A program made the position numbers and the translations under genes. From a virus: 34,562 nucleotides of DNA. The stretch covers positions 1-34,562 of IMG/VR virus record IMGVR_UViG_3300023109_001805, one strand, 5' to 3'. Positions 1,800-30,063 of this stretch are shown here, one piece after another. A model generated the notes under the pieces. The model saw only the letters and a list, made by a program, of their open reading frames with translations, was not told the origin of the DNA and searched no databases. Within the stretch, counting starts at the first letter, position 1. Every line of letters begins with the position of its first letter.

Positions 1800-1800
1800 A

Positions 1801-7482: not shown

Positions 7483-7483
7483 T

Positions 7484-9361: not shown

Positions 9362-9372
9362 AGAGTATATTA

Positions 9373-10335: not shown

Positions 10336-10367
10336 AATTATAAAGATCCTCTATATATGTTAAATAC

Positions 10368-10381
10368 TATTTATATAAATA
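10368..10381. promoter_or_regulatory. Perfect palindrome carrying T4 late promoter TATAAATA on both strands
   Basis: TATTTATATAAATA is a perfect 14-base palindrome. TATAAATA, the exact T4 late consensus, reads rightward at 10374-10381 and leftward at 10368-10375. It lies 23 bases before the start at 10405 and 32 bases from the start at 10335, good spacing for both genes. The consensus match and the spacing on both sides make this the strongest promoter call at a divergent junction. Confidence 0.6.
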
Positions 10382-10404
10382 AGTATGTAGTTAATGGATA
10401 CCCA

Positions 10405-14273: not shown

Positions 14274-14293
14274 GTAGTTAACAAAAGTAAACT

Positions 14294-15445
14294 CTATTTA
14301 TTTTTAACACTTTCGCTGACTTTTTTCCATGTTTGATTTGTTTCAGTACCACAAAACATACTACATACTCTCAATCTTTTGTTTGTGATGTCATTATCTC
14401 GCCAATTGTCTGGCCAATCAGTTTGGAATATTTTACTATTAACAATAGACTCTAATGTGTTGTTATTCAAACTAATCTTATCACGGCCTCCACTGTTTAC
14501 AAATTCTCTAAGTTGTACAGCTTCTGGCGTACCAGGTGCATATAATTTTCCTGCTGTCATACAGCAAGGAAATACCAAGCCTTCTGATGTTATAAAAATA
14601 CTTCGCTTATTAAGTACTTGGCAATCAATACAAGTATTACCCAACTTAACTTCCCACTCATTCAATGGAGTTGATGCATTGTATTTAAATTTAACATGTT
14701 TGTTTTTTGTATCTGGATTTTGATTACCGTCAACAATATCTTGAATTATTTCTGTATTATTAGACTTTCCATCAGGTGCATGAATACTATATAGGAAATT
14801 GTTTTGTTCATTGTATACACCAAAACTAGACTTTTTATTATTGTTAATCATTGTATCTTCGAATCCAAATGCTTCCTTTGCATAAAATTTAGTGATTCCT
14901 ATCTTCTCTGCTAGTTGTCTAGCTTCTTCAACTTGATGTTGGTTGTGTTTAAAAACTAAAAACTCCCATTTGCTATGACCCGGACCGCTAGCATAGCTTT
15001 CCATTGCTGTAATAATTTTATCCCATTTGGTGCCTCTTCTGTAGATCCAGTTTGTATTTTCTAAACCGTCGACACTAAATGTTAGATGTCCATTGGTATT
15101 AATTATCTCACTTAGCTCAGCCCAAAACTCAGGAGTTCTTCCGCTGGCGTTAGTATTCATAGTAATTTCTATTTTTGGATTAATGTCCTTTGTGTACCTT
15201 AGTATATCCAACAACTCAGGATTTGTCATTGGATCACCATAGTTTCCACACAAACTAATACCTCTAAGATTTTTTAGAAAGTCTAGGTTAAACCAATCTT
15301 TGAACTGATTAAATGTAATGTATGTTTCTACCATATTTTCAACTTTTTGTCCGCCAGAATATCTTCTGTTGCATATAGCACATAAAGCATTACACAAGCT
15401 GCTCGCTTCTAAATCTAAATATTGGAGTTCATTGAATGTGTACAT
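14294..15445 (-). CDS. Radical SAM/SPASM-type protein, canonical domain order
   Basis: A 383-residue radical SAM protein. The cluster motif LCNALCAICNRRY places C18, C22 and C25 near the N terminus. SLCGNYGDPMTNPELLDI corresponds to the GGEP-type strand, here GNYGDP, and SVDGLENTNWIYRRG matches the region after strand 5. Toward the C terminus, NTCIDCQ, LVFPCCMTAG and CSMFCG form a cysteine-rich SPASM-like auxiliary cluster region after the core. SPASM enzymes modify peptides or, in related groups, sugars and carbohydrates. It is the last gene of the long leftward unit, overlapping the SGNH gene by 17 bases. It differs in domain order from the eight radical SAM proteins of the neighbouring array and may act on a different substrate. 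Confidence 0.87.
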   Translation of the reverse strand: MYTFNELQYLDLEASSLCNALCAICNRRYSGGQKVENMVETYITFNQFKDWFNLDFLKNLRGISLCGNYGDPMTNPELLDILRYTKDINPKIEITMNTNASGRTPEFWAELSEIINTNGHLTFSVDGLENTNWIYRRGTKWDKIITAMESYASGPGHSKWEFLVFKHNQHQVEEARQLAEKIGITKFYAKEAFGFEDTMINNNKKSSFGVYNEQNNFLYSIHAPDGKSNNTEIIQDIVDGNQNPDTKNKHVKFKYNASTPLNEWEVKLGNTCIDCQVLNKRSIFITSEGLVFPCCMTAGKLYAPGTPEAVQLREFVNSGGRDKISLNNNTLESIVNSKIFQTDWPDNWRDNDITNKRLRVCSMFCGTETNQTWKKVSESVKNK

Positions 15446-16310
15446 TTATTTTTTTCCAAATATTATCACTAGCAATTGAAGTACCTTCAGTGTTCCAATG
15501 TGCATCAGTATCTGAAAGCCAATAGTTTCTAACATTGGGTAAAATGTATTTTATTTTTCTTAGGTTGCTAGATTGTTCTAATTTACTAAGTTGCTCACGA
15601 AATATGGTTTTATCTTGGTTATTAAGCCAGTGTAAACATCTATCAGGTAACCAATAATAGATAGGTATATTTGTCGCACGTGATATCCAGTATAATCTTT
15701 TAACGGATAATTGTAAATTTATTAAATTTGTTACTGGTGTCACTTGGTATTGATAATAATGTTCCCATTGTTGTTTCGCATACTCAAACACTTCTGGAAC
15801 GCTGGAAGCCCGAATACGTTCTTTAGAAATATGATGATTAGGTACTAATTTTTCAACCCATTGATTGTTATTATCAAATATACTACTATCTGGCTTATCA
15901 CCAATCTGTGTATACTCGGTATTATAATATATGGTATCTCTTAATCCATCAGTTAGTCCAACAAAAATCACAGGACTATCTTGATGTGTGTTTATCCATT
16001 GTTCTAATCTCATTAAAATATCGACATTACTAGATCCAGGATTAGCAAGATTAAGATAACAGTTCTTAGGGTCTAATTTAGATAAATTAGCGTCGATAGT
16101 TTCATTATGAGGCAAGCCTTGTCCAAATATAAAGCTATCTCCAAATAAAGGAATAACCAATCCTTCATTATTCACATATTTTGTTATGTCAGACCTAGTA
16201 GGTATATCATATTGCCAATTCTCTTCTGGGGAGTGAGGACCGATTGGTAATCCCTTCGCTTGCCCGTGCCATTTAATATCTGAAAATATAGATAGCTTAT
16301 TACTTTTCAT
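15429..16310 (-). CDS. SGNH/GDSL hydrolase-like protein
   Basis: A 293-residue protein of the SGNH hydrolase fold. IPLFGDSFIFGQGL holds the block I GDS with Ser59; NLANPGSSN near 87-95 supplies block II Gly/Asn; IFVGLTDGLRD stands in for block III, with Asp where Asn is usual; and SDTDAHWNTEG near the C terminus supplies D269 and H271 of the catalytic pair. SGNH enzymes are esterases or acyl-, often acetyl-, transferases on carbohydrates. No signal peptide is seen, so it probably acts in the cytoplasm. The start is ATG 16310, behind GGAAGAATTCA and overlapping the preceding gene by 11 bases; an upstream ATG at 16358 would overlap more. It sits between radical SAM genes, suggesting that it trims or acylates the same molecule. 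Confidence 0.7.
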   Translation of the reverse strand: MKSNKLSIFSDIKWHGQAKGLPIGPHSPEENWQYDIPTRSDITKYVNNEGLVIPLFGDSFIFGQGLPHNETIDANLSKLDPKNCYLNLANPGSSNVDILMRLEQWINTHQDSPVIFVGLTDGLRDTIYYNTEYTQIGDKPDSSIFDNNNQWVEKLVPNHHISKERIRASSVPEVFEYAKQQWEHYYQYQVTPVTNLINLQLSVKRLYWISRATNIPIYYWLPDRCLHWLNNQDKTIFREQLSKLEQSSNLRKIKYILPNVRNYWLSDTDAHWNTEGTSIASDNIWKKINVHIQ

Positions 16311-17484
16311 TGAATTCTTCCAAAAAATCTTGTATGTTGTGTCCACGAATTTTATCAAGCCGCAGTGTATATTCTAACGCATGTTTCCATTTTTCTGGTC
16401 TGTCTGGACCGCCAAACATATTTGTTAACTCATTTACTTTGTACTCTGGAAAAGAGTTATGTAATTTTGTATGTACAAGATCTCGCATTTCCTTGGGAAG
16501 TACTGCTGGACTTAGAATAGCTGGATCGTATACATAGTTATGGTGTACCCATACTCCATGTTCTCTATGAAAGAAGTCATAAAAGTCGCCTAAAGTACTA
16601 TAGTTCATAAAGCTCACGGTTTGTGTTACGTCTAGTTCAAAATCCTCTTGTTTAAGACGCAGGAAATTTTTCATTACATCGTCCCATTTGGTAGGATATC
16701 TAATATATTCATTTCTCTTACCCAAGTCATCTATACTACAACTAACCTTTACATGATCAAATTTTCTCCATAACTCAATAACTTTCTCATTCATTAATGT
16801 CATGTTAATATTGTACCATAGCTTAATATCAGTTTTGCCTAATTCAACAAGTCGTTCTAAGAACTTAAAGTGCTGTTTGATTAACATAGGCTCACCACCA
16901 TTAATATAAAACGTTTTTACATTATCACAATGTTTGAGTAAATCTTCCCAAAACTCTTCACGTTCCGGCCAACGAAAGCCTTGCATTGTATTATAATCAG
17001 TTAGTTTGAATGATAAACTATTTTGTAATTTGTCATAATCATTACGCCACTTACTACTACTTGCCGGATTGCATGTTCTACAAGCAACATTACAAGTATT
17101 ACCCAGACGTAGCTCTACAAATTCTAGTTGTACATCTTGTATGTAGCCTTGCGCATCAGTTGCTAATTGAGCTACATCTTGTGTATATTCGGGATAATTT
17201 TTTATTTCCTCTAGACGTTTACTAGTCATACCTTTTGCTTCTTCGCTAAAACAACGCATACATGCTTTAGGCTTTTTACCTTCCAATACCTGCAATCTTG
17301 CTTGTTTAAATGTATCACTATTCATAGTATCATGTACAGTATCAACATTTAGATTAAAATACTTGTTGTCTGTTCTACTACTGCTGAGTGCCTGTCTGTG
17401 ATCAGCAATACAACAATGAGTAACACCACCGTGCGGGTGTGTTGCTAAGTGTTGAAATAACAGGGGGCAAAATGTATTACTCAT
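16300..17484 (-). CDS. Radical SAM protein with N-terminal auxiliary-cluster region (array member 1)
   Basis: A 394-residue member of the tandem family. The N-terminal auxiliary region has C6, C24-C25 (THCC) and C75-C78 (CMRC). The radical SAM core has NTCNVACRTCN with C131, C135 and C138, then FYINGGEPML as the SAM-binding strand and CSIDDLG after it. Near the C terminus, RLDKIRGHNIQDFLEEFNEK is a degenerate copy of the family's closing motif. ATG 17484 is the start: AGGAATTTT precedes it and it overlaps the upstream stop by 8 bases (ATGAGTAA). The auxiliary region precedes the core, the reverse of classical SPASM proteins. The chemistry and substrate are unknown; the family usually gets the name twitch-domain radical SAM protein. 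Confidence 0.88.
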   Translation of the reverse strand: MSNTFCPLLFQHLATHPHGGVTHCCIADHRQALSSSRTDNKYFNLNVDTVHDTMNSDTFKQARLQVLEGKKPKACMRCFSEEAKGMTSKRLEEIKNYPEYTQDVAQLATDAQGYIQDVQLEFVELRLGNTCNVACRTCNPASSSKWRNDYDKLQNSLSFKLTDYNTMQGFRWPEREEFWEDLLKHCDNVKTFYINGGEPMLIKQHFKFLERLVELGKTDIKLWYNINMTLMNEKVIELWRKFDHVKVSCSIDDLGKRNEYIRYPTKWDDVMKNFLRLKQEDFELDVTQTVSFMNYSTLGDFYDFFHREHGVWVHHNYVYDPAILSPAVLPKEMRDLVHTKLHNSFPEYKVNELTNMFGGPDRPEKWKHALEYTLRLDKIRGHNIQDFLEEFNEK

Positions 17485-18661
17485 AAAATTCCTCAAGCTC
17501 TGGCAAAATATCATTTAACGATTCAGATCGTATTTCATCCAGTTTTCGAGACCAACTTACAAAGTAATTAAACTTATCTACTTTTTTATCTAGCAAAAAT
17601 TTCTTGTATGCTTCTAACTGGATAAAATGAGTGTCTGTAATATTATAATCTCGTATATACTTATCTACCTTTTGTAGTGCTATTTGTAATACAGAATCAG
17701 GCAATACTTGTGCCCTTAGATGTTCAGGAAATTGTACAATGTTAATAAAAAAATCATTTTTTGTTACCCATTTTTTATCAATACAATACTGAAAAAAATC
17801 AATGCAGTGTAATGCATTATAAGCACTAACAGTACAGTTTATTTTAAAATCAACTTCTGGACTAGTTGCTCTTAGATGCTCTATGTTATTCTCAATATCT
17901 TTCCACACTGTGCCACGACGAATATATTCAGCATGCTTTCCGTAACCATCTAAACTTGCTTCTACTCTAACACTTTTAAAATGCTTCCATAGATCAATCA
18001 CATTATGTTGTTTATATACGAGCTTGCTCAAATTACTGTTATAACTTAGTTCAATATCTGTTTTGTTATTTTCAATAAGATATTCTAAGATTCTATAGTG
18101 CTCATCCATTATTAATGGCTCACCACCTGCAAAGTAAATTTTTTCAACAGTATCAATCCAAGTTTCAATATCATCCCAAATTTCTTCAATCGTATTTTTT
18201 ACTCTCGTAATACGTGGCCAAGAGCCTTCGTTCATTTGTTCCCATTCGTCCTTCCACATACTACTAAAGTCTGGTCCACAGCTTCTACACTTAAAATTGC
18301 ATATGTTACTAAATCTTATATCCATATACGACATATCCACTTGTTCAACGGTGCCATCAGGCAATGTTGAATCGATATTTAAAAATTTATGGCTAAATGA
18401 TTTGTTCATGTGTTGGCGCATACTAGTGCTACCAAAACGTTCTGTTTCAAAACATTTATTACATGCAGAATGTTTTTTATTTGCCAACATTGTTAAACGT
18501 AATTCTTTCATACGCTCACTGTTCCAAATTTCTGTAAAGCTAGACTCACGTGAATTACCAACACTATAATCATACGATGCTAAACAACAGGGATAAACTT
18601 TGCCATTAGCAAAAGCATGTAAGTGAATCCATGGGAGTATACACATGTTATCTTTCATCAT
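17477..18661 (-). CDS. Radical SAM protein with N-terminal auxiliary-cluster region (array member 2)
   Basis: A 394-residue radical SAM protein and a clean example of the family. MCILPWIHLH with C7, a YPCC pair at C25-C26, and ACNKCF with C67 and C70 make up the N-terminal auxiliary region. SNICNFKCRSCGPDFSS gives core cysteines C121, C125 and C128, and IYFAGGEPLI follows. EASLDGYGKHAEYIRRG fits the sixth-strand region. The protein ends with RKLDEIRSESLNDILPELEE, the family's conserved tail. Start ATG 18661 or 18658 (two adjacent ATGs) follows AGAGAG; overlap with the upstream gene is 14 or 11 bases. It shares the order of cysteines with members 1, 3, 4 and 5. Substrate unknown. Confidence 0.88.
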   Translation of the reverse strand: MMKDNMCILPWIHLHAFANGKVYPCCLASYDYSVGNSRESSFTEIWNSERMKELRLTMLANKKHSACNKCFETERFGSTSMRQHMNKSFSHKFLNIDSTLPDGTVEQVDMSYMDIRFSNICNFKCRSCGPDFSSMWKDEWEQMNEGSWPRITRVKNTIEEIWDDIETWIDTVEKIYFAGGEPLIMDEHYRILEYLIENNKTDIELSYNSNLSKLVYKQHNVIDLWKHFKSVRVEASLDGYGKHAEYIRRGTVWKDIENNIEHLRATSPEVDFKINCTVSAYNALHCIDFFQYCIDKKWVTKNDFFINIVQFPEHLRAQVLPDSVLQIALQKVDKYIRDYNITDTHFIQLEAYKKFLLDKKVDKFNYFVSWSRKLDEIRSESLNDILPELEEFYE

Positions 18662-19820
18662 AACTCTCTTTTATAATGCTATAAAGCTCTGGAAATGTTT
18701 GTATGAAAGATTCTTTACGGTATTGATCTGCTCCTCTGGTTTCTTGTACAAAGTTAGTAAATTGTTGATGGTCACCTGGTTGTTGTAAATGATTAACAAT
18801 AGGTACAAGTGACTCGTCTGTTAATTCATTTGAAATTTTTGATTTATACTCTTGTGGTATGTGCCTAATATCGTAGTGTTGTGGATAATAAACTATGTTA
18901 TTAAAGATATATGTGTCAGGGAATTGGTTTAAGTATTTGTGAATCCTGGGCAGATAGTATATGTTTAGTGTACTAATAGTCACAGTAAAACTAATACCTA
19001 GTCGTACTCCCTGACTTTGTTGAAGTTCACTAAACTTTCTAATATTATCGTCTGCTAGATTCCAACTTTTTCCATGGCGTATATAATTAAAATGATCTCC
19101 TATACCGTCTATACTAATGTTAAGTCCAACTGTCTCAAAATTATCCAGCATTTTGTTTACAAAATCTTCATCAAACACTGTAGCGTTTGAACTAAAATTA
19201 AGACTAATGTGTTTACTATTTCCATTATCAATTAGCATGTTTACGAGTTTTCTAAAGTCTTTACTGTACAACGGCTCACCGCCCATTATTTCTAATCTTT
19301 GTACTGTTTTACTCCAGTCATCCAACTCAGTCCACATCTTACTTGTAATTTTATTGTTAAAGTCTACAGACATCTCTCGATGATCAAATTTGTGAACACG
19401 ATCATTCCACTCAGTATTCCATTTGGTACTGTGTGTCGGGCCACAAGTTCTACACTTTAGATTACAAACATTACCAATGTTTATTTGTAGGTCTTTGGGT
19501 ATAACTTGTAAATTATTATAATCTACATTTATATTAAACGTCTTAAAGATATCATTGTATATTAAACGCTTACTTTGTTTACCATTACGTTCATCATTCC
19601 AACAAGTATTACAGTTACTAGGATATTTTTCCTCTAACATATCTTTTCTAAGTTGAATCATGAACTCTGAATTTATAATGTCGTGTATGCTATCATCAGC
19701 AACATTCATTTTACGTTGGTCTTGTACAATAAGATCTTTAGCAATACAACAACTTCTAACAAACCCACTAGGCTCACTACTAGTATGCCCCCATGCTAAA
19801 GCACATAGATTCTTATTCAT
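18648..19820 (-). CDS. Radical SAM protein with N-terminal auxiliary-cluster region (array member 3)
   Basis: A 390-residue radical SAM protein. Auxiliary cysteines are C6 (LCALAWGH), C24-C25 (SCC) and C70/C73 (CNTCW). The core is GNVCNLKCRTCGPTHST with C119, C123 and C126, and EIMGGEPLYS follows. SIDGIGDHFNYIRHG matches the sixth-strand region. The tail ESFIQTFPELYSI is a clear copy of the closing motif. I chose ATG 19820 because it sits just before the first cysteine, overlaps the upstream stop by 8 bases (ATGAATAA), and has GGTGG upstream; the ATG at 19856 would be within the previous gene. It shares the array's layout. Substrate unknown. Confidence 0.87.
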   Translation of the reverse strand: MNKNLCALAWGHTSSEPSGFVRSCCIAKDLIVQDQRKMNVADDSIHDIINSEFMIQLRKDMLEEKYPSNCNTCWNDERNGKQSKRLIYNDIFKTFNINVDYNNLQVIPKDLQINIGNVCNLKCRTCGPTHSTKWNTEWNDRVHKFDHREMSVDFNNKITSKMWTELDDWSKTVQRLEIMGGEPLYSKDFRKLVNMLIDNGNSKHISLNFSSNATVFDEDFVNKMLDNFETVGLNISIDGIGDHFNYIRHGKSWNLADDNIRKFSELQQSQGVRLGISFTVTISTLNIYYLPRIHKYLNQFPDTYIFNNIVYYPQHYDIRHIPQEYKSKISNELTDESLVPIVNHLQQPGDHQQFTNFVQETRGADQYRKESFIQTFPELYSIIKESYDER

Positions 19821-21207
19821 ATCTACACCACCAGTCATACAACTCAGGGTCAGCACGATAAATGTCTTTTAATCTAAACTGTTCTTGTCTAATTTGATCT
19901 AACCTATCTTGATAACCTTTACCGTTCTTAAATTTTTGCTCATGTGTGTCTGGAAATTGTTCAGCAAATGTCGGACGATTTTTCATTTCACTAAGTGTAT
20001 TTACAAGAGTCATTTGTCGATGTGTAGCACGTGGTTCCATATACGCAAGTAATTGATCAATTTTACGATCTAATATATGCCTTGGCCATGCAAACGGACT
20101 CATTACAATGTCAGGATGAAATGCAAACATAATTTTAGTTTCCATACTTACATCTAATTCTAAACTTAAATCAAATAAGTCACGTAAACTAAACATACCT
20201 GGACCAGTAATAGTTAAATCAAAACGCATTTTTTCTTTGCCGCCAGGTAGTGCTAATCCTTGCTTAAAGTTATCAAGCCATTCTTCCCATACAATGCCTT
20301 TGCGAATAAACTCTACAATATCTCCTGTACCATCAATGCTTGCACACATTAGCCAATCTTTAAACTGTGGTAAGTAATCATACAAGTTTTTTCCCTTGAA
20401 GTCAATCCTTGATAAATTACTATTATAACGCAAGTAACAATTTTTCGCACTGCCGTTAAGGGTCATTTCTTCTAGTGCCCACCAATGCATATCATACATT
20501 AGTGGCTCGCCGCCTACCCAATATATTTCTTCTACAATACCATCACTGATAGCTTGTTTAAATTCAGGCTCAGCTACATGCTTTTGGAAGTTATTCATTT
20601 TCTTTTTAACTTCAGGAATCATAAATGGTTGGTGTTCAGGGCTCCACAAATCATGTTTCTTTTTTTCAGCTTCCCATGCACTGCTCAATTGCTCGCCGCA
20701 CATTCGACATTTAAAGTTACACAAATTACTATAACGATAGTCAAATGATATAGTAGGCATAGTTGTATAGCCATCATCATCTGTATTATCAAATGCTTCT
20801 TGTATTTTGTCTTTGAATAAGACACCAGTAAACCATTTACGATATGAACTTAACGACAATGTATCATCATTGCATACATCACATTGACTAATACGCTCTC
20901 CTGCCATTAGTTTTTTTCGTATGTCACGCATGTATTCACTGTTCCAATGTTCTTCTAGTGTAAGTGGATTAAACTTATCAGCGTCTGTCTCACTTTCACG
21001 TATTTTCCCATACTTTTCGTCATTGGTTGCATCTATATATTGTTTTTGAAAGGTGTGTTCTTCTCTACTGGCACAACATAATCTGCGCTCTCCTTGTGGA
21101 CTAATATAGGTGTGTGTCCACGGTGCCATACAAAAAGTCTTGTTTTCACTATCCTCAGCACAGCTTCCATCGTTATTCCATTTTGGTTTAATTTTTGTCA
21201 ATATCAT
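19813..21207 (-). CDS. Radical SAM protein with N-terminal auxiliary-cluster region (array member 4)
   Basis: A 464-residue member, longer than members 1-3 because of a longer stretch before the core. KTFCMAPWTHTYISPQG holds C26, RLCC holds C44-C45, and QCDVCN holds C109 and C112. The core is SNLCNFKCRMCGEQLSS with C163, C167 and C170. IYWVGGEPLMY and ASIDGTGDIVEFIRKG follow. The C terminus, YQDRLDQIRQEQFRLKD, keeps only part of the closing motif. An extra cysteine lies at C16. Start ATG 21207 overlaps the previous gene by 20 bases; no strong ribosome binding site is seen, so coupled translation from the upstream gene is likely. Substrate unknown. Confidence 0.87.
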   Translation of the reverse strand: MILTKIKPKWNNDGSCAEDSENKTFCMAPWTHTYISPQGERRLCCASREEHTFQKQYIDATNDEKYGKIRESETDADKFNPLTLEEHWNSEYMRDIRKKLMAGERISQCDVCNDDTLSLSSYRKWFTGVLFKDKIQEAFDNTDDDGYTTMPTISFDYRYSNLCNFKCRMCGEQLSSAWEAEKKKHDLWSPEHQPFMIPEVKKKMNNFQKHVAEPEFKQAISDGIVEEIYWVGGEPLMYDMHWWALEEMTLNGSAKNCYLRYNSNLSRIDFKGKNLYDYLPQFKDWLMCASIDGTGDIVEFIRKGIVWEEWLDNFKQGLALPGGKEKMRFDLTITGPGMFSLRDLFDLSLELDVSMETKIMFAFHPDIVMSPFAWPRHILDRKIDQLLAYMEPRATHRQMTLVNTLSEMKNRPTFAEQFPDTHEQKFKNGKGYQDRLDQIRQEQFRLKDIYRADPELYDWWCRYE

Positions 21208-22405
21208 ATTCCATAAACTCAGGCCATAGTTTTTTCCAACTGTTATTTCTTCTTATATCTAATTTAGATAGAAATTTTAACCCGTTTCTAAAATGCCATA
21301 ACTCTGGCTCTGCACTATTCATATGTTCTAAGCAAGCATCTACTACTTTTCTTCTTTCATCAGCTATATCTAAATTATCTCTGTACTCTGAAAGTTCTGT
21401 AGTATACATATCTTTGATAGGTTTGGGTAAATTAACAGATGAAAATCGTTTAGGCTCTACTGCCATATTATATGTAAACTGCTGACTTCCCTTAGGCGCA
21501 CGCCAATGAAATGGGTCCACATGCATCTGATCAACAAGATAATCTAAGAATTTTGGTATATTCCTTATGCTTAAATTTGTTATTGTAATTTGTGGAAGTA
21601 CATGTACTTCTGGCATTTCGTTTTTTATTGTGTGCCAGTTTTTTACAATCTTCTCCCAATTACTTCCGTAGCGTTGATACTCACCAATGTCGTCGACTGC
21701 ATCGATACTTGCTCTTATACTAACCCATTTAAATTGTTTCCATAAGTCTAGTATATCTATTTTTTTGTATTTTAGTGTTGACAAGTTAGTGTTATACTCA
21801 AGTTTTATATTAGACGCCAATCCTCGGCGCACTACTTCATTTAATAATGTGTAATGATATGGTGTCATCAAAGGCTCACCGCCTGCAAAGTAAATTACTT
21901 CTAGTTTGTTATCAACAATTGTTAAAATGTCTTGCTCTGTATTATTGGATAGTGTAATAAACTTACTGGCACCCTCTTTTACTTGATATTTTAGTGCAGA
22001 TCCGTCTTCATACCAACTACTACTAAGAGCATGCCCACACATTACACAAGCCATATTACACATATTACTACTTCGAATATCTAAATATCTTAATGCAAAG
22101 TCAGGTGTTGTATTTTCGGTTATTAACTCGCCGTAATCATTATTCAACCGTGTTCTTAGACTGTTCCCATTTCCAAATTTTTCTTGATTATAACAAAACT
22201 TACAAGCATCTTGTAATTTACCATCGAGAAGATCTTGTCTAAAATTACTCGCAGTATCACTTCGCCAAGCATCTTGTACAGACATTTCATTTGTATTTCC
22301 GTAGTTAATACTTTGTGCAGTACAACAAGGATTTACTTGTCCGTCAGGGTGTATGTATAAGTGTACCCAAGGCGCAGCGCAAATTACTCCATTATCTTCT
22401 TTCAA
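21188..22405 (-). CDS. Radical SAM protein with N-terminal auxiliary-cluster region (array member 5), TTG start
   Basis: A 405-residue member. VICAAPWVHLYIHPDG holds C9, NPCC holds C27-C28, and ACKFCY holds C68 and C71. The core is SNMCNMACVMCGHALSS with C116, C120 and C123, then IYFAGGEPLMT and ASIDAVDDIGEYQRYG. The tail LDIRRNNSWKKLWPEFMEY is a good copy of the closing motif. No in-frame ATG lies near the start; TTG 22405 has GGAG seven bases before it and overlaps the previous stop as TTGA, a TTG version of the ATGA junction. This is one of two TTG starts I propose in the window. Members 2 and 5 are close in motif spacing. Substrate unknown. Confidence 0.87.
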   Translation of the reverse strand: MKEDNGVICAAPWVHLYIHPDGQVNPCCTAQSINYGNTNEMSVQDAWRSDTASNFRQDLLDGKLQDACKFCYNQEKFGNGNSLRTRLNNDYGELITENTTPDFALRYLDIRSSNMCNMACVMCGHALSSSWYEDGSALKYQVKEGASKFITLSNNTEQDILTIVDNKLEVIYFAGGEPLMTPYHYTLLNEVVRRGLASNIKLEYNTNLSTLKYKKIDILDLWKQFKWVSIRASIDAVDDIGEYQRYGSNWEKIVKNWHTIKNEMPEVHVLPQITITNLSIRNIPKFLDYLVDQMHVDPFHWRAPKGSQQFTYNMAVEPKRFSSVNLPKPIKDMYTTELSEYRDNLDIADERRKVVDACLEHMNSAEPELWHFRNGLKFLSKLDIRRNNSWKKLWPEFMEYDIDKN

Positions 22406-23934
22406 ACTTCAACTCCACCTAACGCATCCGTTTTTGTATCCCATCCGCCTATTGCTTCGTGTTCGTCATCACCACCTGTATATTCTTCAGTAGTGGCTGG
22501 ATCACCAGCTCTATCATTTACAAAGATAGTTTCTTTATTTTCGATTTGTTTACGAGTTGGCACAATTGCATCAATACTTTCAAACCATTCAGCAAATGGA
22601 CCTGGAAAAGTTTCTACAAAGTTTTTATTTCTACGCACATCATATTGGGCAAAGAATGCTTTAAAATCGTTGTATAGTTTAGGCATATCTGCTGTGTTTT
22701 TGTGAGGAGTTTTTACAATGTCCAAATAGTCTATAAGTCGCTGTACACTAGCACGTTCTCCATCATTTAACATTTGTTGAGGGCGTTCACTGTTAAACCA
22801 TAACTGTAGCTTATCTTTATAGTGACGCTTAATTTCTACTGGAATAATTGCACAACTTTGAAAACTAGGAAAACGTAAAATGTTTAATGTCATAGTAGGC
22901 GCACGACGACCATAAGTTTCACGCAAGTCTAACATTTCGTCCATAAACTCTGTAATAGTAGTTAAGCACAATGAATTGATTGTCATCATCATATGTAATT
23001 TAGATACATTTGATTCTTTAAGAACACGATGAATACTACTCATCCATAAATCATAATCTAGTCCATCACGTATATATTCTGCCTGTGGCTTTGTCGCTTC
23101 CATAGATGTGTAGATTTCAAAGTTAGGAACATGCCAAGACTTTTCAATTAACTTGTCTAATACCTTGGGTGTTTGTGGCGATAAGTTACTATTAATGGCA
23201 AACCTCATTTGTCTACCTCTGTCAGGATTTTGCTCGAACCAATCAAATAATTTCCATGTACCCGTATGCATAATAGGTTCACCGCCTGTAATACGAATCT
23301 CTTCTAAGTTATCAGCAAGTCCTTCTTCCCACCATTTATGAAATGCCTGAATATAAGGATTGTCTTCTTGTTTCTTTGTTGCTGGTTCTGCCCAAGGAGC
23401 AGTATCTGAGAAATGTCCACGGCCGTCACTTTGAATATTTTGATAAGCACCGTAGTCGTTGATGTCTTTAACCCAGGCTGTACTAAACGCTGGATTGCAG
23501 TATGAACATTTTAAGTTACACGCACGATCAAAAGAAATTTCAAGTGTACGCAACATAACATTATCGTCCCATGGCATCTCTGTACTCTTGGCTATATCTT
23601 TGTCTTTAAAGATTTCAGTTTTAAACACACGGTCACTGATATGATCCTTTCCCATATCTTCAACTTTCCAACAGTATTCACACTCAGCAGGACGTTCGCC
23701 TTTGAGCATCATTTTTCTCATTTTTTTCTTATGAGATGTATTATGAATAGCAGTATGATCTTTTTCAAGTTCATCCAATGGGATCCAATGTCCTGGTGGG
23801 TGATGGCAACTAGTAGTTTGTCCATGACCTAACCATATAGTAGCATTATACCACTTAGCCGCACAATAACTAGTACTAATACTATCAATCATACGTTCTT
23901 TATATGCCTGTAATGATTCGCTGTGTTTACGCAT
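22402..23934 (-). CDS. Radical SAM protein, CxHPP subgroup, with acidic C-terminal tail (array member 6)
   Basis: A 510-residue member that begins the second subgroup. C24 (YCAAKWYN) is followed by SCHHPPGHW in place of the CC pair, so the second cysteine is His44, and ECEYCW gives C85 and C88. The core is RACNLKCSYCNPAFST with C139, C143 and C146; IRITGGEPIM follows. YDVRRNKNFVETFPGPFAEW is the closing motif. Unlike its relatives it continues for about 55 residues in an acidic Gly/Asp-rich tail ending GGVEV. Start ATG 23934 lies after a 42-base gap, with AAGGACAAGTAAACAT upstream. It shares length and CxHPP with members 7 and 8 and overlaps member 5 by four bases. Substrate unknown. Confidence 0.87.
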   Translation of the reverse strand: MRKHSESLQAYKERMIDSISTSYCAAKWYNATIWLGHGQTTSCHHPPGHWIPLDELEKDHTAIHNTSHKKKMRKMMLKGERPAECEYCWKVEDMGKDHISDRVFKTEIFKDKDIAKSTEMPWDDNVMLRTLEISFDRACNLKCSYCNPAFSTAWVKDINDYGAYQNIQSDGRGHFSDTAPWAEPATKKQEDNPYIQAFHKWWEEGLADNLEEIRITGGEPIMHTGTWKLFDWFEQNPDRGRQMRFAINSNLSPQTPKVLDKLIEKSWHVPNFEIYTSMEATKPQAEYIRDGLDYDLWMSSIHRVLKESNVSKLHMMMTINSLCLTTITEFMDEMLDLRETYGRRAPTMTLNILRFPSFQSCAIIPVEIKRHYKDKLQLWFNSERPQQMLNDGERASVQRLIDYLDIVKTPHKNTADMPKLYNDFKAFFAQYDVRRNKNFVETFPGPFAEWFESIDAIVPTRKQIENKETIFVNDRAGDPATTEEYTGGDDEHEAIGGWDTKTDALGGVEV

Positions 23935-23976
23935 ATGTTTACTTGTCCTTCATTCTATAATACTTCTATTTAATTT

Positions 23977-25515
23977 CTAAGATGATGTATAACAATCATT
24001 CCACCAACCACTAAGCTCTGGAAATACTTCAATAAAGTTTGTATTTCTTCTATGATCAATTTGATTAAAATATTCCCAAAACTGTTTCTGCCGAAGTTGC
24101 AATTCATCTTCACTGATCGATTCTGCTCCCGACTTAATCCATGCAATGTCCCTTTTAACTTTTTCAATTTCATGATCTAAAAATCCATGAAAAGTTGTAT
24201 CATAATCTTCTTTGGCTCGGTTACTTTCCATAAATTCCACAGCATCTTCCATATACTTCATTACCTCAGGTATATAATGTATGTTCTGTGCAGACATCCA
24301 TGTAGGCTGCCTAAGATAAGGTATATCAAAATATATACGTTGTCTCTGATATCTCACAAATGGACCTCGGTGTTTTCCTGTTTCATCAATAGGAGAATCA
24401 TTTACAATATTTTGATTATCAAATCCAAACTCTACTCGAAGATCTAATATCATTTGTAAGTATTGTTGTATTCTCGGAATACTTAGTAAGTTAAATGTGT
24501 TAATAAAAGTGACGCTGGTTCCTGTAGTCTCAGATAATATGCGCTTTGTATTCTTTAACACAACATCATAATCCATACCAGTACGAATGTATTCAGCCTG
24601 TTCTCCTACACTATCAAAACTAACAAACAAATTAAAATGTTTGATAGCAGGTGCAACAAAAAAGTTATTATCAGTATAAGGATTAATTTTGTTTTTATCT
24701 TCCCAGATCCTTGTTGTTTCTATCTCTTGAAGATGTTCAACAAATTTATCAAAAAGTTTAGGTTGAGGAGGACACATATTACTAGTAATACTAATTTCAA
24801 TATCTTGATTAGGATTGTCGTTTACATATTTTAATACTTTGAATGTATTTTTATCCATGAGAGGTTCGCCACCTGTCATACGAAATATCTTCAAATCTTT
24901 GTATAGGTCAGGCCACCACTTCCAAAATGCTTCCACATATGGGTTTTCTTTTGCAGCGCCTTTAATCGGCATCAGTCCTATTTTGTCTAAATGTTCTTTA
25001 TCATTATGCACAAAGTCTGTTAAGTGGAATGCTCCATGATCGTCAATCTCTTTTTCCCATTCAGTACTCAAATGCGGACTACAATATGTACACTTGAAAT
25101 TACATGCTTGATTAAAATTTACCTCTACGTAACGTGGATTAATGTTTTCATCCCAACTGCCTTCCAATACCTCATTCCAGCCGTCAGTTCCTACCCATTC
25201 TTCCCCACTTCGATAATGTCTATCACTCAGATCCCCTTGATCTTCTAATTTCCAACAGTAACTACATCCTGCTGGCCTTTTACCTTCAAGCATTTCTTTA
25301 CGCTGTAATGCTTTTTCTTGAGTATTGTGTAATGCCTTAGGATTATTTTTTAACTCACTAAGCGGTATTTTATGCGTAGGTGGATGATAACAGCTCTGAG
25401 TCAGTCCTTGCGGTAAGTGCAGACTAACTTGTAGCCACTTAGCCATACACATGCTAGGACTAATATCATTTAGCTTTTCTTTAGTACGTTGTGCATTAGA
25501 AAGATAATCTTTCAT
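23977..25515 (-). CDS. Radical SAM protein, CxHPP subgroup (array member 7)
   Basis: A 512-residue member. SMCMAKWLQVSLHLPQG holds C23, SCYHPPTHKIP holds C42 with Tyr43-His44 in place of the second Cys, and GCSYCW gives C84 and C87. The core is QACNFKCTYCSPHLSTEW with C138, C142 and C145, followed by FRMTGGEPLMDKNTFK. It ends with QIDHRRNTNFIEVFPELSGW, the best copy of the closing motif. Start ATG 25515 has AAAGGACATTAA upstream and lies 10 bases after the previous stop. It is strongly similar to the next gene over the core, with exact DNA repeats of 55 and 42 bases, pointing to recent duplication. It has extra sequence near 300-370 relative to members 1-5. Substrate unknown. Confidence 0.88.
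   Translation of the reverse strand: MKDYLSNAQRTKEKLNDISPSMCMAKWLQVSLHLPQGLTQSCYHPPTHKIPLSELKNNPKALHNTQEKALQRKEMLEGKRPAGCSYCWKLEDQGDLSDRHYRSGEEWVGTDGWNEVLEGSWDENINPRYVEVNFNQACNFKCTYCSPHLSTEWEKEIDDHGAFHLTDFVHNDKEHLDKIGLMPIKGAAKENPYVEAFWKWWPDLYKDLKIFRMTGGEPLMDKNTFKVLKYVNDNPNQDIEISITSNMCPPQPKLFDKFVEHLQEIETTRIWEDKNKINPYTDNNFFVAPAIKHFNLFVSFDSVGEQAEYIRTGMDYDVVLKNTKRILSETTGTSVTFINTFNLLSIPRIQQYLQMILDLRVEFGFDNQNIVNDSPIDETGKHRGPFVRYQRQRIYFDIPYLRQPTWMSAQNIHYIPEVMKYMEDAVEFMESNRAKEDYDTTFHGFLDHEIEKVKRDIAWIKSGAESISEDELQLRQKQFWEYFNQIDHRRNTNFIEVFPELSGWWNDCYTSS
24902..24956. repeat. 55-base exact repeat, copy A (radical SAM member 7)
   Basis: These 55 bases are identical to 26643-26697. Both copies lie in coding sequence just after the GGEP region and encode the same ENPYVEAFWKWWPDLY stretch. 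Another exact match of 42 bases links 25042-25083 with 26783-26824. Identity at this level between paralogues with otherwise diverged ends shows recent duplication or gene conversion. Confidence 0.85.
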
Positions 25516-25525
25516 TTAATGTCCT

Positions 25526-27268
25526 TTAATATTTTATTTTTTCGCAGTCTTTCCATACTGCACTTAGTTCAGGGAAAGTTTTAACAAAACTTGTGTTACG
25601 TCTGGAATCTAGTTGTTTAAAGTAATTGTAAAATTGAAACTTTCTATTTTTTACATCGTCTAATTTAATCTTAGAATTTTTAATAATTGAAATGTTTCTT
25701 TTTACTTTAGCTATTTCAAACTGTGTAAACCCTAATCCTTGCTCCGTCTCTCGGTTTTGCTCCATAAACTTAACACAATCGTCTAGAATATCTAGCATAT
25801 CTGGATAAAATACAGCAAAGTCTGCATTCATCCAAATTGGGTCGCTGAGTAGTGGAATATCAAACCAAATTCGACATAGGTCTTTACTTTCACTAAATTT
25901 CATTTTAAGTTCTAGTATATACTCTAAAAAATGTTTGAATCCAGTGATACTTAAAAAATTGAAAGTGTTAATAAAAGTTATCTCACTGTTTTTTGTATTA
26001 CGTAAAAACTTATGTACGTTATCTTGAAACACTTGCCAATCTAATCCATTACGTATATATTCCGCTTGTTTTCCCACACTATCTATACTTGCAAAAAGCA
26101 TAAAGTTTTTGATTCTGGGAACGTTTAACATGACTCCCTGATTGCCTTCTTCATCGCTTGGTGGTGCACCCAAGCACTTCCATTCTAGATTTTCATTTGG
26201 TTTAAACCAAATAAGTGTATACAAAAAATCTCCATGTTCGGTTCTGTTTCTACTGTCAAATTCTAATCCAATATCTTCTAGTGTTAAACGCTGTTTTTTT
26301 GGATCAATAGTAGGATCGTCTACAGTAGAGTCATCTAATACAATAGCCCTTTGCCAATTCTGCCAATTAATAGCTGGATCAGATTCAGCAAAATAAGTAA
26401 CTTCTTTTAAAATTCCACGATCAATCCAGTCATTATAAACTTCTTGTGTAATATCATTTTCGATATTTTTAATATTAGTTATAAACTGATCAAAAAGTTT
26501 AGGTTGAGGAGGACACATGTTACTAGTAATACTAAGCTCAAGTAATTGATTAGGATTCTTGTTTACATAATCTAATACTTTGAATGTATTTTTGTCCATA
26601 AGGGGCTCACCGCCCGTCATGCGAAATACTTTAAGCTCACTATATAGGTCAGGCCACCACTTCCAAAATGCTTCCACATATGGGTTTTCTTTTGCAGTGC
26701 TTTTAATGGGCATTAGTCCTTTATCAACAAGTGCATCAATATCATTATGTTTATTATAGCCTATATTAATTGGGCCGAATTTGTCAATCTCTTTTTCCCA
26801 TTCAGTACTCAAATGCGGACTACAGTAGGTACATTTAAAATTGCAACTTTGGTTAAAGTTTACTTCCACATAATGAGGATTAATGTTTTCATCCCAACTG
26901 CCTTCTAAAACTTTATCAAATCCAGATTGCGCCCAGCCTTCTCCACTTCGATAATGCCTATCACTCAGATGTCCTCGATCTTCAATCTTCCAGCAATAAC
27001 TGCATCCTGCGGGTCGTTTTCCCTCCCACATTTTTTTTCTTTCAAGAACTTTATGTACAGTATTGTGAAGTGCTCGTGGATTATTTTCAAGCTCAGATAA
27101 TGGTATATTGTGTACAGGAGGATGATAACAACTTTGTGTAAGCCCAGCAGGTAAATGTATACTAACTTGTAGCCACTTAGCCAAACAAAAACTAGTACTA
27201 ACAGAGGACAACTGTTGTTTAATTTCATCTTCGCCATCAAGATTACGTGAAATTGAAAATTTAACCAT
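25526..27268 (-). CDS. Radical SAM protein, CxHPP subgroup, with about 90-residue insertion (array member 8)
   Basis: A 580-residue member and the first gene of the array in transcription order. SFCLAKWLQVSIHLPAG holds C28, SCYHPPVHNIP holds C47 with Tyr48-His49, and GCSYCW gives C89 and C92. The core is QSCNFKCTYCSPHLSTEW with C142, C146 and C149; FRMTGGEPLMDKNTFK follows. Compared with member 7, residues about 273-382 replace a stretch of some 22 residues, an insertion of about 90 that includes DDSTVDDPTIDP. The tail is QLDSRRNTSFVKTFPELSAVW. Start ATG 27268 lies five bases after the glycosyltransferase stop; no strong binding site is seen. It is very similar to member 7 outside the insert. 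Substrate unknown. Confidence 0.88.
   Translation of the reverse strand: MVKFSISRNLDGEDEIKQQLSSVSTSFCLAKWLQVSIHLPAGLTQSCYHPPVHNIPLSELENNPRALHNTVHKVLERKKMWEGKRPAGCSYCWKIEDRGHLSDRHYRSGEGWAQSGFDKVLEGSWDENINPHYVEVNFNQSCNFKCTYCSPHLSTEWEKEIDKFGPINIGYNKHNDIDALVDKGLMPIKSTAKENPYVEAFWKWWPDLYSELKVFRMTGGEPLMDKNTFKVLDYVNKNPNQLLELSITSNMCPPQPKLFDQFITNIKNIENDITQEVYNDWIDRGILKEVTYFAESDPAINWQNWQRAIVLDDSTVDDPTIDPKKQRLTLEDIGLEFDSRNRTEHGDFLYTLIWFKPNENLEWKCLGAPPSDEEGNQGVMLNVPRIKNFMLFASIDSVGKQAEYIRNGLDWQVFQDNVHKFLRNTKNSEITFINTFNFLSITGFKHFLEYILELKMKFSESKDLCRIWFDIPLLSDPIWMNADFAVFYPDMLDILDDCVKFMEQNRETEQGLGFTQFEIAKVKRNISIIKNSKIKLDDVKNRKFQFYNYFKQLDSRRNTSFVKTFPELSAVWKDCEKIKY
26643..26697. repeat. 55-base exact repeat, copy B (radical SAM member 8)
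   Basis: Second copy of the 55-base exact repeat at 24902-24956, in the same reading frame of the paralogous gene. The 42-base match at 26783-26824 pairs with 25042-25083. Confidence 0.85.
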
Positions 27269-27273
27269 AATGT

Positions 27274-28254
27274 CTATTCAATACTGTCATTGACTTGTTC
27301 TTCACGTACCATTGCGCCCAATCTATGTGGATTCTTGTATACGGTTTTAAAGAATCTACTGCCAACCCTTCCCATATCTGCAATTTCTAAGTCTAATACT
27401 GAACGAAGGTTTTCGCCTATCTCTATAGTTTTTGCTGTTACCTTGTCAATATCCCATGATACACCAGTGTTTACACACAATTCATTTCCGCCCTCAAACT
27501 CTGGGAATAACTCAGTTGTAAAGTAATTACTAAGCCAATCAAAGTCTCTGACATTTTTCCAATCCCATGCATTACGTTGTATATTAGTCATTTGGCATCC
27601 AAGTCGTGCACCATACATTGCCCAAATTCCATTAGTAACGTCTTCGCCAACACTCATCCATACCATCAGTCTCTTATAATTTTCACGATATATGTGTTTA
27701 AGTTTTGCAGGATCAACTACATTGCCATCTTCTAGTCCCATCTTAACACCTTCACGAAACCCTGCACGCCAAGCCTGTAGTGGGCTACCATTGTTCATTA
27801 CATCACAGTAAATATTATTCATTTGTACATAGTTAATATTCCAACAAAAGTCAACCTGTGCTCTTTTATCACTTGCAGGGGCGGCTTCATGTGTACGCAT
27901 ACGGTTAACAACATCAACGGGCCAACATTTAATACCGCCGTTACCATATACCAAACCATTTACTGTATTTTTACCTGCCCAACTAATGACGTCATTGCTT
28001 TTGATTCGGTCCATATCAACTTCTACATTGAAAAAATCTTCTCTTACTACATTATCAGCATCAATAGTAATAAATCGTTCAGTGTCACTCATAGCAGCGG
28101 CGGCTTTATGTGCGGCGTCACTTCCCCATACACCATGACTTCGTTTAGCCCAAGGCGCCTTTTCAAGTAAGTCTGAATAATTTTTATCAGCATTAGGCTC
28201 GTCATAGCTAATAAAAATTATATCAAATTCAGTAATTGGTACTAAATTTGTCAT
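27274..28254 (-). CDS. DxD glycosyltransferase (GT-A type)
   Basis: A 326-residue protein of the GT-A class. DIIFISYDEPNADKNY at 11-26 is a typical first strand and loop of a nucleotide-sugar transferase, and RFITIDADNVV at 60-70 carries the metal-binding DxD (D65, D67). Residues 20-55 with VWGSDAAHKAAAA fit the donor region. It lacks a signal peptide. Homologues are carried by many marine myoviruses, where they are annotated as glycosyltransferases of unknown acceptor. Start ATG 28254 is in an ATGA overlap with the upstream gene, so translation is likely coupled. It directly precedes the radical SAM array, so its acceptor may be the same molecule. Confidence 0.8.
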   Translation of the reverse strand: MTNLVPITEFDIIFISYDEPNADKNYSDLLEKAPWAKRSHGVWGSDAAHKAAAAMSDTERFITIDADNVVREDFFNVEVDMDRIKSNDVISWAGKNTVNGLVYGNGGIKCWPVDVVNRMRTHEAAPASDKRAQVDFCWNINYVQMNNIYCDVMNNGSPLQAWRAGFREGVKMGLEDGNVVDPAKLKHIYRENYKRLMVWMSVGEDVTNGIWAMYGARLGCQMTNIQRNAWDWKNVRDFDWLSNYFTTELFPEFEGGNELCVNTGVSWDIDKVTAKTIEIGENLRSVLDLEIADMGRVGSRFFKTVYKNPHRLGAMVREEQVNDSIE

Positions 28255-29237
28255 ATTGTAATCTCCTCTTGTGCAAACGTAATATTGCGTATATTGTCTG
28301 ATACTAATATTTTACATTGGTCTACATTATCAGTCAAGTTTAAATTTATTTCTTGTTTCCAACCTATTTTTTCAAATGGTATTTTTATTGTTGATAATAA
28401 GCTATTTGGATCTTTTTTAGTAATATAAAAAGTCAAGTCTCCAAAAATTTTATGTTCCTGTGGATCACTAAAATTACTACGCATAACCCATCCATTAGTT
28501 GTATTACTTATTACAAATGTCGGTACTTGAATTTGTCCAGGTTCATAAATTTTAGCATGATATCGTTTATGACTTTTATTACTTGTATACTCAGCACCAA
28601 CAAAATATTCCTTAGTTCTAATAGAATAACTTTTAAAAATTCTTCTTGTTAAAATTTGTATATCATCTAAACTACATATCGTTCTCAGATGACTCATATC
28701 AAAAATACGAAATCCATCATTCATAAGATCAATAGGATCAATTTCATATGTAGACATCAGATAGCTTGGGTTCTTTTTACTAATCAGATAAAATTTAATT
28801 TTACTATACTGACTTTGCGAACTTTGTTTTTTAACGTGTCGAGCACCAGTCATTCTATATACTGTGTCTTGATTAAAATTTACTTCCATTTTCCAATCAT
28901 TTGTATACAAGATAATGTTAACGTCACAATTTTTGTTATGATACTCAGGTATCATACTAAGTTGGTCTTCTTCCTTTTTAATGGTAAGTTTTTTACTTTT
29001 CGCCATCAAGACGAATCCATCTTTACTCTCAGACACAACAAAACGGCGTGGGTCTAATTCCCCAAGCATTATTTTTCTAGCATTGTCGTCATTAGTCTTA
29101 AGATAAGAATGCTTGCTAGGTTTTGGTTTATTTGAAATTTCAACAACCTGACCATCCCATTCTTCATAGTATACAAAGTAATCAGCTGGAGGTTTATCCA
29201 CTATAAATTCACTTAGTGACAGAAAGTTTGAGGTCAT
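28251..29237 (-). CDS. Hypothetical protein with internal duplication
   Basis: A 328-residue protein with no recognised family. It shows an internal repeat: KFYLISKKNPSYLMSTYEID in the middle matches TFYITKKDPNSLLSTIKIP near the C terminus, and each is preceded by a beta-rich stretch (NDWKMEVNFNQD and NGWVMRSNFSDP). Each unit reads as a small beta domain of roughly 100 residues. The first 80 residues are different. No enzymatic motif was seen, so it may be a structural, adaptor or carbohydrate-binding protein. Start ATG 29237 overlaps the upstream transferase by 29 bases. It sits between two glycosyltransferases, so a role in carbohydrate attachment or display is possible. Confidence 0.65.
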   Translation of the reverse strand: MTSNFLSLSEFIVDKPPADYFVYYEEWDGQVVEISNKPKPSKHSYLKTNDDNARKIMLGELDPRRFVVSESKDGFVLMAKSKKLTIKKEEDQLSMIPEYHNKNCDVNIILYTNDWKMEVNFNQDTVYRMTGARHVKKQSSQSQYSKIKFYLISKKNPSYLMSTYEIDPIDLMNDGFRIFDMSHLRTICSLDDIQILTRRIFKSYSIRTKEYFVGAEYTSNKSHKRYHAKIYEPGQIQVPTFVISNTTNGWVMRSNFSDPQEHKIFGDLTFYITKKDPNSLLSTIKIPFEKIGWKQEINLNLTDNVDQCKILVSDNIRNITFAQEEITI

Positions 29238-30063
29238 CTATTATTTCTTTCGTTATAAATTGCTCGTCACCGTAATGAATAATTCCAGAAGACAATTTAT
29301 GATTTTCTATAATTATATCACCATCATCAGTGTACCAACTGTTAAGCATTTCTGTCCAGTTTTTTGGAATATCAGAGTGCCATAATCCTTGACTACGATT
29401 ATCAAGATCATAAAAATCATCCATCCAAATACCAATGTTATCTTCTTGGTTTAGTAAGTATGTTACGATATTTGTTAAAACATTCTTATTAAAAGTTTCT
29501 GGTCTTTTCTCATTGAATATTTTTGCATACATATCTCGCCAGTTTTGAAAAACTGGATCTGCCATTTTAAACCATTCAATAGCCTCATCAGTTGATTTAT
29601 CAAAGTATATCAAATGACTATAATGTTGTGATAGTTTGTAATGACTTTCAAATTCAAATTTACTGGTTTTCTGTGCAATTCCATTTCTAAAATTTCTAGC
29701 AACAATAGGCATAGCTATACTTTTGTTTTTAAATTGTTGCCAAAAAAGGTCTATATCAACATTTAAAAATAACATATCATTATCAATATACACTGTTTCA
29801 TTGAAAGGAGAACAATGATACATTTGCCATAAATTCGTGCCATGAAATCCATCTTTATATGCTGAATTACCAAATTTTAATTCAGTTATATAATCAAAAA
29901 CATCATGGTATACGTCCGGTACATCGTCAAGTTTTCCCTGATCAACTACTAAGCATATTTCAGAATTAGGGTCACACTTTTTAATACTACATGCTAATGC
30001 ATAATTATATTGAATTTGGTCAGTTTCAGTATTAATTCCCAGTGTTATGAATCCTCTACTCAT
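29209..30063 (-). CDS. DxD glycosyltransferase (GT8-like)
   Basis: A 284-residue protein resembling GT8-type transferases. GFITLGINTETDQIQYN at the N terminus is the first strand region, and ETVYIDNDMLFL at 89-100 carries the DND metal-binding motif (D94, D96). It is related to the next gene upstream, which has the same N-terminal strand (GVAIIAYNNSQLDYL) and a DSD motif, so the two are paralogues. I chose ATG 30063: it overlaps the upstream stop by 8 bases (ATGAGTAG), and GGAGATGAAGAG precedes it. The ATG at 30078 would also be possible but would give a poorer binding site. It probably adds a sugar to a phage or host acceptor. Confidence 0.75.
   Translation of the reverse strand: MSRGFITLGINTETDQIQYNYALACSIKKCDPNSEICLVVDQGKLDDVPDVYHDVFDYITELKFGNSAYKDGFHGTNLWQMYHCSPFNETVYIDNDMLFLNVDIDLFWQQFKNKSIAMPIVARNFRNGIAQKTSKFEFESHYKLSQHYSHLIYFDKSTDEAIEWFKMADPVFQNWRDMYAKIFNEKRPETFNKNVLTNIVTYLLNQEDNIGIWMDDFYDLDNRSQGLWHSDIPKNWTEMLNSWYTDDGDIIIENHKLSSGIIHYGDEQFITKEIIDDLKLSVTK

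Follow-up and report, generated by a model that had tools for sequence, protein, structure and literature searches.

The DNA analyzed here, hereafter the window, is the full 34,562-nucleotide stretch of IMG/VR virus record IMGVR_UViG_3300023109_001805, and our analysis concerns an array of eight adjacent open reading frames (ORFs), P1 (at 16300) to P8 (at 25526), on its minus strand between positions 16300 and 27268 (Table 1). A preliminary description based on the sequence alone had recognized paralogous radical S-adenosylmethionine (SAM) genes in a phage-like genome, and this holds: P1-P8 all match the NCBIfam family NF033640 (twitch domain-containing radical SAM, N_Twi_rSAM; N_Twi below) over nearly the full profile, with scores of 301.9 to 414.5 bits against a cutoff of 170. 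As every E value is 7e-90 or lower, chance is excluded, and the eight proteins fall into this one family rather than into unrelated ones. An alignment of the eight (A1; P1 numbering) shows that C16, C35, C85, C88, C141, C145, C148 and the GGEP motif are invariant, and the CxxxCxxC radical SAM core motif is present in each of them, in agreement with the eight adjacent minus-strand genes with CxxxCxxC, GGEP and common N-terminal cysteines first described. Neighboring ORFs are separated by at most a 42-base gap and overlap by at most 44 bases, close to the limit of about 43 bases given before; part of the overlaps is an effect of choosing the first possible start codon. Because the array was found again at about 100% identity in two further contigs, of 24.5 kb and 198 kb (the latter named G002), an assembly artefact is ruled out. 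Viperin and QueE were rejected as identities of the array proteins, since the scores lie far under the cutoffs; for the viperin family NF038283, the array proteins reach at most 44 bits against a cutoff of 180 and are not members.

The array belongs to a widespread operon whose gene order runs from a tail-fibre-like gene, a small coiled-coil protein, two genes for glycosyltransferase family 8 (GT8)-like proteins and the FISY gene to P7-P6-...-P4-...-P1, and the three other viral records examined by region have the same order as the window. Profile scans of viral contigs recovered 291 relatives of P4 and at least 544 of P6, counts that also take in family members beyond the strict orthologues. 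The locus set comprised 58 P4-bearing loci, non-redundant at 95% P4 identity, and includes P6 in 56, P7 in 49, P1 in 48 and all four classes in 40, these counts being lower bounds as some loci are contig fragments. The order P7-P6-P4-P1 on one strand is kept in 39 of the 40 loci holding all four, and the window itself shows it, with FISY and GTb upstream. Accessory members differ from locus to locus (P3-class copies occur in 11 of the 58 loci and P5 in 3), and the window's eight genes are no record, the longest tandem run of the family being 11 (locus L238). At L184:10757-13309, two N_Twi units are fused in one ORF of 850 amino acids (aa). All 681 module orthologues retain CxxxCxxC, and 677 of them also show the twitch cysteine pattern. 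Such an operon organization is no part of the NF033640 family definition.

None of the 50,697 named phage records holds a P4 orthologue (only a partial match of 24% was obtained) or any match to P6, and the module is thus invisible to current phage biology. We found no earlier report of an ordered paralogue module in the open-licence literature, and it is apparently undescribed so far.

The array members are old and distinct. Phylogenetic trees require at least six separate origins for the eight window proteins, forced by supported branches. P7 and P8 are the sole sister pair and are joined by P6 in a subclade, and the remaining members are closer to proteins of other viruses or of metagenome-assembled genomes (MAGs) of Bdellovibrionota. 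Local tandem duplication as the origin of the array is thereby ruled out and fits P7/P8 only; of the tandem array proposed at first, the adjacency stands, whereas a local expansion mostly does not, since the lineages are ancient and only P7/P8 is recent. Each of P1 to P7 forms one clade (seven labels, six changes, which is the minimum), with less support for P2 (64) and P7 (85). Identities to the window in L182 and L183 are 79 and 77% for P1, 86 and 81% for P4, 81 and 80% for P6, and 55 and 56% for P7; the P1, P4 and P6 orthologues in L185 are 40-54% identical. Recent transfer of P1, P4 and P6 was ruled out, as their DNA sequences are 72-76% identical and synonymous change is near saturation; constraint, rather than a recent origin, accounts for the high identity of the proteins. 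Nonsynonymous divergence (dN) of P1, P4 and P6 between the window and L182/L183 is 0.12-0.19, with synonymous divergence saturated or nearly so, while FISY, GTa and GTb are far less constrained (dN 0.46-0.83 in the same comparisons). By these sequence comparisons, the core classes are under strong purifying selection.

These data bear on the idea that the array is mere redundant gene dosage, or that a single enzyme was amplified in tandem, neutrally, within a plastic region. The P7/P8 pair is a genuine recent duplication and accessory members vary between loci, as amplification would have it, yet six or more separate lineages with one-to-one orthology, fixed order and strong purifying selection make this reading highly improbable; for the core it is already contradicted, whereas it is possible for P8. 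The fixed order in dozens of distant viruses, in which each position is held by a single clade and strong purifying selection acts, argues for a multi-step radical pathway run as a unit. The enzyme assembly line suggested in the preliminary description accordingly gains strong support from the one-to-one orthologues in fixed order, the single-clade classes and the two-unit fusion, and the data are also compatible with its second suggestion, a family that diversified to serve many positions of a single substrate; as a whole, that interpretation is partly supported.

Regarding the architecture of these proteins, a profile built from 58 relatives (A5) was used against solved structures; the A1 alignment was too diverse to serve as a search query. 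Positions 6-77 of A5 match the twitch domain of BtrN (residues 163-238, E=9e-7), and positions 107-305, downstream of this match, correspond to the radical SAM core of SkfB. Judged from these profile matches, the twitch domain stands ahead of the radical SAM core, and the family is permuted, because the twitch domain of BtrN is C-terminal whereas here it is N-terminal. BtrN, a butirosin aminocyclitol dehydrogenase, has a four-cysteine twitch domain as the array proteins do, and its twitch cluster is fully ligated by the four cysteines (PMC6231123). Matches to solved structures came only with the profile, a phmmer search of P2 against the PDB returning no match. The AlphaFold2 model of P2 (predicted local distance difference test score, pLDDT, 95.5) has CteB, viperin, anSME, SkfB, SuiB and BlsE as its nearest radical SAM structures in Foldseek, all with template modelling (TM) scores of about 0.4, values that are probably low due to the permutation; these matches do not discriminate between substrates. 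The N-terminal-twitch family appears to be one without an assigned reaction, and no solved close relative was found.

The viperin match raises an anti-defence or antiviral-type function, through viperin-like nucleotide chemistry or DNA modification, to which a weak match to NF038283 could be added. We give this very little credence: the viperin scores are far under the cutoff, and both the eight-fold diversification and the linkage to fibre and glycosyltransferase genes would be left unexplained. Viperin is not known to have a twitch domain, which also counts against it.

Within the array, P6-P8 differ from the rest of the NF033640 family in being longer (510-580 aa) and in carrying a CHHPP or CYHPP variant in the twitch region. 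P8 shares 73% identity with P7 over 262 aa and has an extra stretch of roughly 110 aa inserted midway through its radical SAM core. The real start of P3 is likely an internal Met preceding CALAWG.

Table 1. Features of the window (positions in the window; bits refer to profile matches).
Position	Strand	Feature	Basis
1311..1844	-	SIS-domain sugar isomerase-like protein	PF01380, 46.9 bits
4894..5523	-	Ribulose-phosphate 3-epimerase family	PF00834, 73.8 bits
5531..6253	-	Methyltransferase-like protein (by motif)	No Pfam match; recurs beside N_Twi genes
6247..7482	+	UDP-glucose/GDP-mannose dehydrogenase	PF00984, PF03721
7484..9361	+	Tenth radical SAM, cobalamin-type, KedN5-like	PF04055, 63.8 bits
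14294..15445	-	Ninth radical SAM, core and C-terminal SPASM-like domain	PF04055, 32.2 bits, over cutoff
15429..16358	-	SGNH-like protein (sequence motif), directly downstream of P1	Inspection; no Pfam match
16300..17514	-	P1, N-terminal-twitch radical SAM, 404 aa, core-module member	NF033640, 358 bits
17477..18661	-	P2, N-terminal-twitch radical SAM, 394 aa	NF033640, 414.5 bits
18648..19856	-	P3, N-terminal-twitch radical SAM, accessory	NF033640, 314.7 bits
19813..21207	-	P4, N-terminal-twitch radical SAM, 464 aa, most conserved core member	NF033640, 327.6 bits
21188..22405	-	P5, N-terminal-twitch radical SAM, 405 aa, rare accessory	NF033640, 343.9 bits
22402..23934	-	P6, N-terminal-twitch radical SAM, 510 aa, CHHPP subtype, core	NF033640, 312.4 bits
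23977..25515	-	P7, N-terminal-twitch radical SAM, 512 aa, CYHPP subtype, first core member	NF033640, 308.6 bits
25526..27268	-	P8, tandem duplicate of P7	NF033640, 301.9 bits, in two stretches
27274..28254	-	FISY, GT-A-fold glycosyltransferase-like, invariant DxD (D65, D67)	AlphaFold2 model (pLDDT 82), alignment
28251..29237	-	X28, conserved neighbor, in several syntenic loci	No Pfam or PHROG match
29209..30078	-	GTb, GT8/glycogenin-like glycosyltransferase	Profile match to glycogenin, E=3e-4
30056..30982	-	GTa, GT8-like glycosyltransferase, invariant DxD (D114, D116)	Invariant columns; weak glycogenin match, E=0.2
30986..31333	-	115-aa coiled-coil-like protein between fibre and glycosyltransferase genes	Coiled-coil judged by eye
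31398..32549	-	Tail-fibre-position structural protein, Gly/Tyr-rich stretch	Sequence, position
32551..33468	-	Tail-fibre-like protein	PHROG matches including tail fiber phrog_19602

Upstream of P7, in 46 loci, FISY was identified in 38, GTb in 38, GTa in 34 and the 115-aa protein in 17, and tail-fibre-like genes precede the glycosyltransferase genes in many loci where the contig extends that far. The top Foldseek matches of the FISY model are nearly all GT-A glycosyltransferases (SunS/ThuS, TarP, TarS), at a low TM-score of about 0.3. The structural protein in the tail-fibre position is a candidate acceptor of a glycan or of a radical SAM modification. Gly/Tyr-rich repeats lie at about aa 255-300 of this protein, and GYGYGY runs are found in fibre-family homologues (L290:2061, L291:3045, L299:382, L293:1358 and also L302). 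This repeat could possibly act as acceptor for a glycogenin-like transferase.

Taken with these neighbors, the finding that four classes keep one order next to genes for tail fibres and sugar transfer in dozens of uncultured viruses suggests that the array enzymes probably act stepwise on one surface molecule. Our favored reading, which we hold tentatively and at somewhat short of an even chance, is that the N-terminal-twitch radical SAM set tailors a glycan placed on the tail fibre or the host envelope. The operon would couple the tail-fibre gene and three glycosyltransferase-like genes to the ordered radical SAM set, with P7-P6-P4-P1 as the core and P2, P3, P5 and P8 as accessory members. 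Each enzyme is predicted to hold a SAM-binding 4Fe-4S cluster and one auxiliary twitch cluster, to generate a 5'-deoxyadenosyl radical and to modify one position by hydrogen-atom abstraction, be it dehydrogenation, epimerization, deoxygenation or cross-linking. The enzymes would work in sequence on the glycan or its nucleotide-sugar precursor, and the adjacent glycosyltransferases would place the glycan on the neighboring tail fibre or the host envelope. We favor glycan tailoring because glycosyltransferase and sugar-nucleotide genes are constant company of the module, and because Vibrio phage K566 and the pelagimyophages show the same association. Of the four N_Twi matches that the isolate K566 (OZ196521) has next to GT8/WaaI-like genes, two pass the cutoff and two fall under it; the proteins are about 23% identical, and this phage has no P4 or P6 orthologue. 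The host-recognition cluster of pelagimyophages combines glycosyltransferases with variable radical SAM cassettes near tail fibres and also has rfaE (HldE) and UDP-glucose dehydrogenase, while the part of that report considered here does not describe an ordered module (PMC7029224).

To cover its demand, such a pathway may draw in some genomes on a MetK and an Fe-S assembly protein of the phage. The 198-kb contig G002, which has a T4-type large terminase whose best named match is Pseudomonas phage PA5oct-like (57%), encodes MetK and a FeS_assembly_P protein, whereas a search of this genome for an A-type Fe-S carrier gave no match; it has 21 NF033640-family matches in total and, at 132-149 kb, a second island of radical SAM genes, and elsewhere encodes HldE, an NAD-epimerase and a carbamoyltransferase. 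MetK is present in 6 of 17 P4-bearing records (in 5 of the 6 that are 197 kb or longer) and in 135 of 50,697 named phage records, a contrast that is suggestive and not a controlled test, as record sizes and lineages differ.

Several points weigh against glycan tailoring. The nearest radical SAM structures to the P2 model are mixed, with peptide enzymes (CteB, anSME, SkfB, SuiB) beside viperin and BlsE; the GTa matches to glycosyltransferases are weak; MetK is missing from many P4-bearing records, some of them fragments; the adjacency to tail-fibre genes may simply reflect a hypervariable region; and the substrate of the module is one that we infer. In addition, P6- or P7-type genes of Bdellovibrionota (L101:4148-7101 and L086:13828-18339) neighbor a gene of the PqqD family (PF05402) and a prepilin-like gene, and a PqqD-family gene adjoins a Peptidase_S74 chaperone gene in L086 and L047:14034-14804, a neighborhood that suggests a protein substrate.

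The main rival, compatible with glycan tailoring rather than exclusive of it, is a post-translational activity like that on ribosomally synthesized and post-translationally modified peptides (RiPPs), in which the array enzymes act directly on residues of the adjacent tail-fibre proteins, for example in the Gly/Tyr-rich segment, and the glycosyltransferases decorate these proteins afterwards. The closest solved relatives include peptide-modifying enzymes, the best structural matches of FISY are the peptide S-glycosyltransferases SunS/ThuS, and Asp/Asn beta-hydroxylase-like genes recur near N_Twi genes. The PqqD gene of Bdellovibrionota, of a RiPP-recognition fold, lies 11 bases from a P6 orthologue and beside a P7-type gene, with the prepilin-like and S74 fibre-chaperone genes near, and the GYGYGY runs among the fibre-family homologues could offer such residues. 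In the phage operon, however, neither PqqD nor any other recognition element was noticed, and the PqqD profile matched three bacterial sequences only; likewise, no RiPP precursor peptide or recognition element was found there, although no systematic precursor search was made. Moreover, Gly/Tyr-rich runs occur in some homologues only whereas P6 and P4 are near-universal, and sugar-nucleotide enzymes are abundant. We regard direct modification of the fibre proteins as somewhat unlikely.

The remainder of the window holds two further radical SAM genes, which gives ten radical SAM proteins between 7484 and 27268, the ten in 20 kb reported at the outset. The ORF at 14294, earlier taken for a canonical SPASM protein, is indeed a radical SAM protein, whereas its SPASM match (PF13186) falls just below the cutoff (20.6 against 21.5 bits) and its 61 bits to NF033640 place it outside the family. 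Similarly, the ORF at 7484 is a radical SAM protein as described, but its B12-binding match is sub-threshold (25.7 against 32.1 bits), and with 253 bits against a cutoff of 700 it is not a member of the KedN5-type B12 radical SAM C-methyltransferases (NF033712). This KedN5-like enzyme, together with the twitch match to the aminocyclitol dehydrogenase BtrN, would fit an auxiliary set for host metabolism that produces or changes a small molecule (a cofactor, a nucleotide or an antibiotic-like compound) by aminocyclitol-like chemistry and is unrelated to surfaces. Relatives of inosamine/glycine amidinotransferases, which link aquatic radical SAM islands, Synechococcus phage S-SCSM2R and Campylobacter phages (L119:3154-4122, PQ898602, FN667788) and accompany radical SAM and glycosyltransferase genes there, point the same way. 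The amidinotransferase is not in the window, however, no export genes were noticed, and the glycosyltransferases that are nearly always nearby point to glycans, so that we consider a small-molecule role improbable.

That a phage can carry many radical SAM genes is not new, as both the Campylobacter phages CP220/CPt10 and a marine T4-like genome are rich in them. CP220/CPt10, which are T4-related, carry 11-12 radical SAM genes, five of them in an interchangeable module (PMC2853527) that also holds genes of NDP-sugar-transferase fold and an amidinotransferase. The radical SAM proteins of CP220 are short (about 260-340 aa), reach at most 28 bits with the N_Twi profile and lack the P7-P6-P4-P1 order. 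We rejected the CP220 module as the same system, given the different radical SAM types and the lack of any amidinotransferase seen in the window. The marine T4-like genome TARA_ERS488813_N000010 is described as having 12 radical SAM genes and Fe-S assembly genes including PaaD (PMC5332604). G002 resembles it by description, in its many radical SAM genes and in having an FeS_assembly_P protein, and differs in giving no match to an A-type carrier; the portion of the source consulted describes neither paralogue classes nor their order. In a study of Baltic viruses, 261 auxiliary genes were labelled 'ahbD', few of them with both radical SAM and SPASM domains (PMC9301287); this set may include mislabelled N_Twi-type genes, and annotation pipelines that label such genes as 'auxiliary' to host metabolism may be wrong.

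The fixed classes P1, P4, P6 and P7 provide a defined set for biochemistry. If their product sits on fibres or on the envelope, it would be relevant to host recognition and to the exclusion of superinfection among aquatic bacteria, and if the reading as a fibre glycan or glycoprotein is true, radical chemistry would be used in the maturation of virus particles. The boldest form of this proposal, a dedicated radical assembly line of 4-11 non-redundant enzymes in fixed order that builds a novel glycan or glycoprotein, tailored by radical chemistry, on the virion tail fibre of uncultured aquatic phages, is one we consider doubtful.

Other loci rich in N_Twi genes were also observed. Four loci with 6-7 N_Twi genes each (L036, L037, L038 and L039) are binned in marine MAGs assigned to Gammaproteobacteria, Chloroflexi, Acidimicrobiaceae and Rickettsiales and look like misbinned phage contigs. 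The second island of G002 (L016 = G002:130001-150000, about 2000-19500) is less compact than the array and contains six N_Twi genes together with further radical SAM genes and one gene that resembles Asp/Asn beta-hydroxylases. Finally, in loci picked by similarity to the consensus-type gene L013, a choice by which these statistics are no evidence for the window's own array, the methyltransferase-like family of 5531-6253 and a second radical SAM type (L013:559-1521) were each counted in 74 viral loci, next to N_Twi genes of the consensus type.

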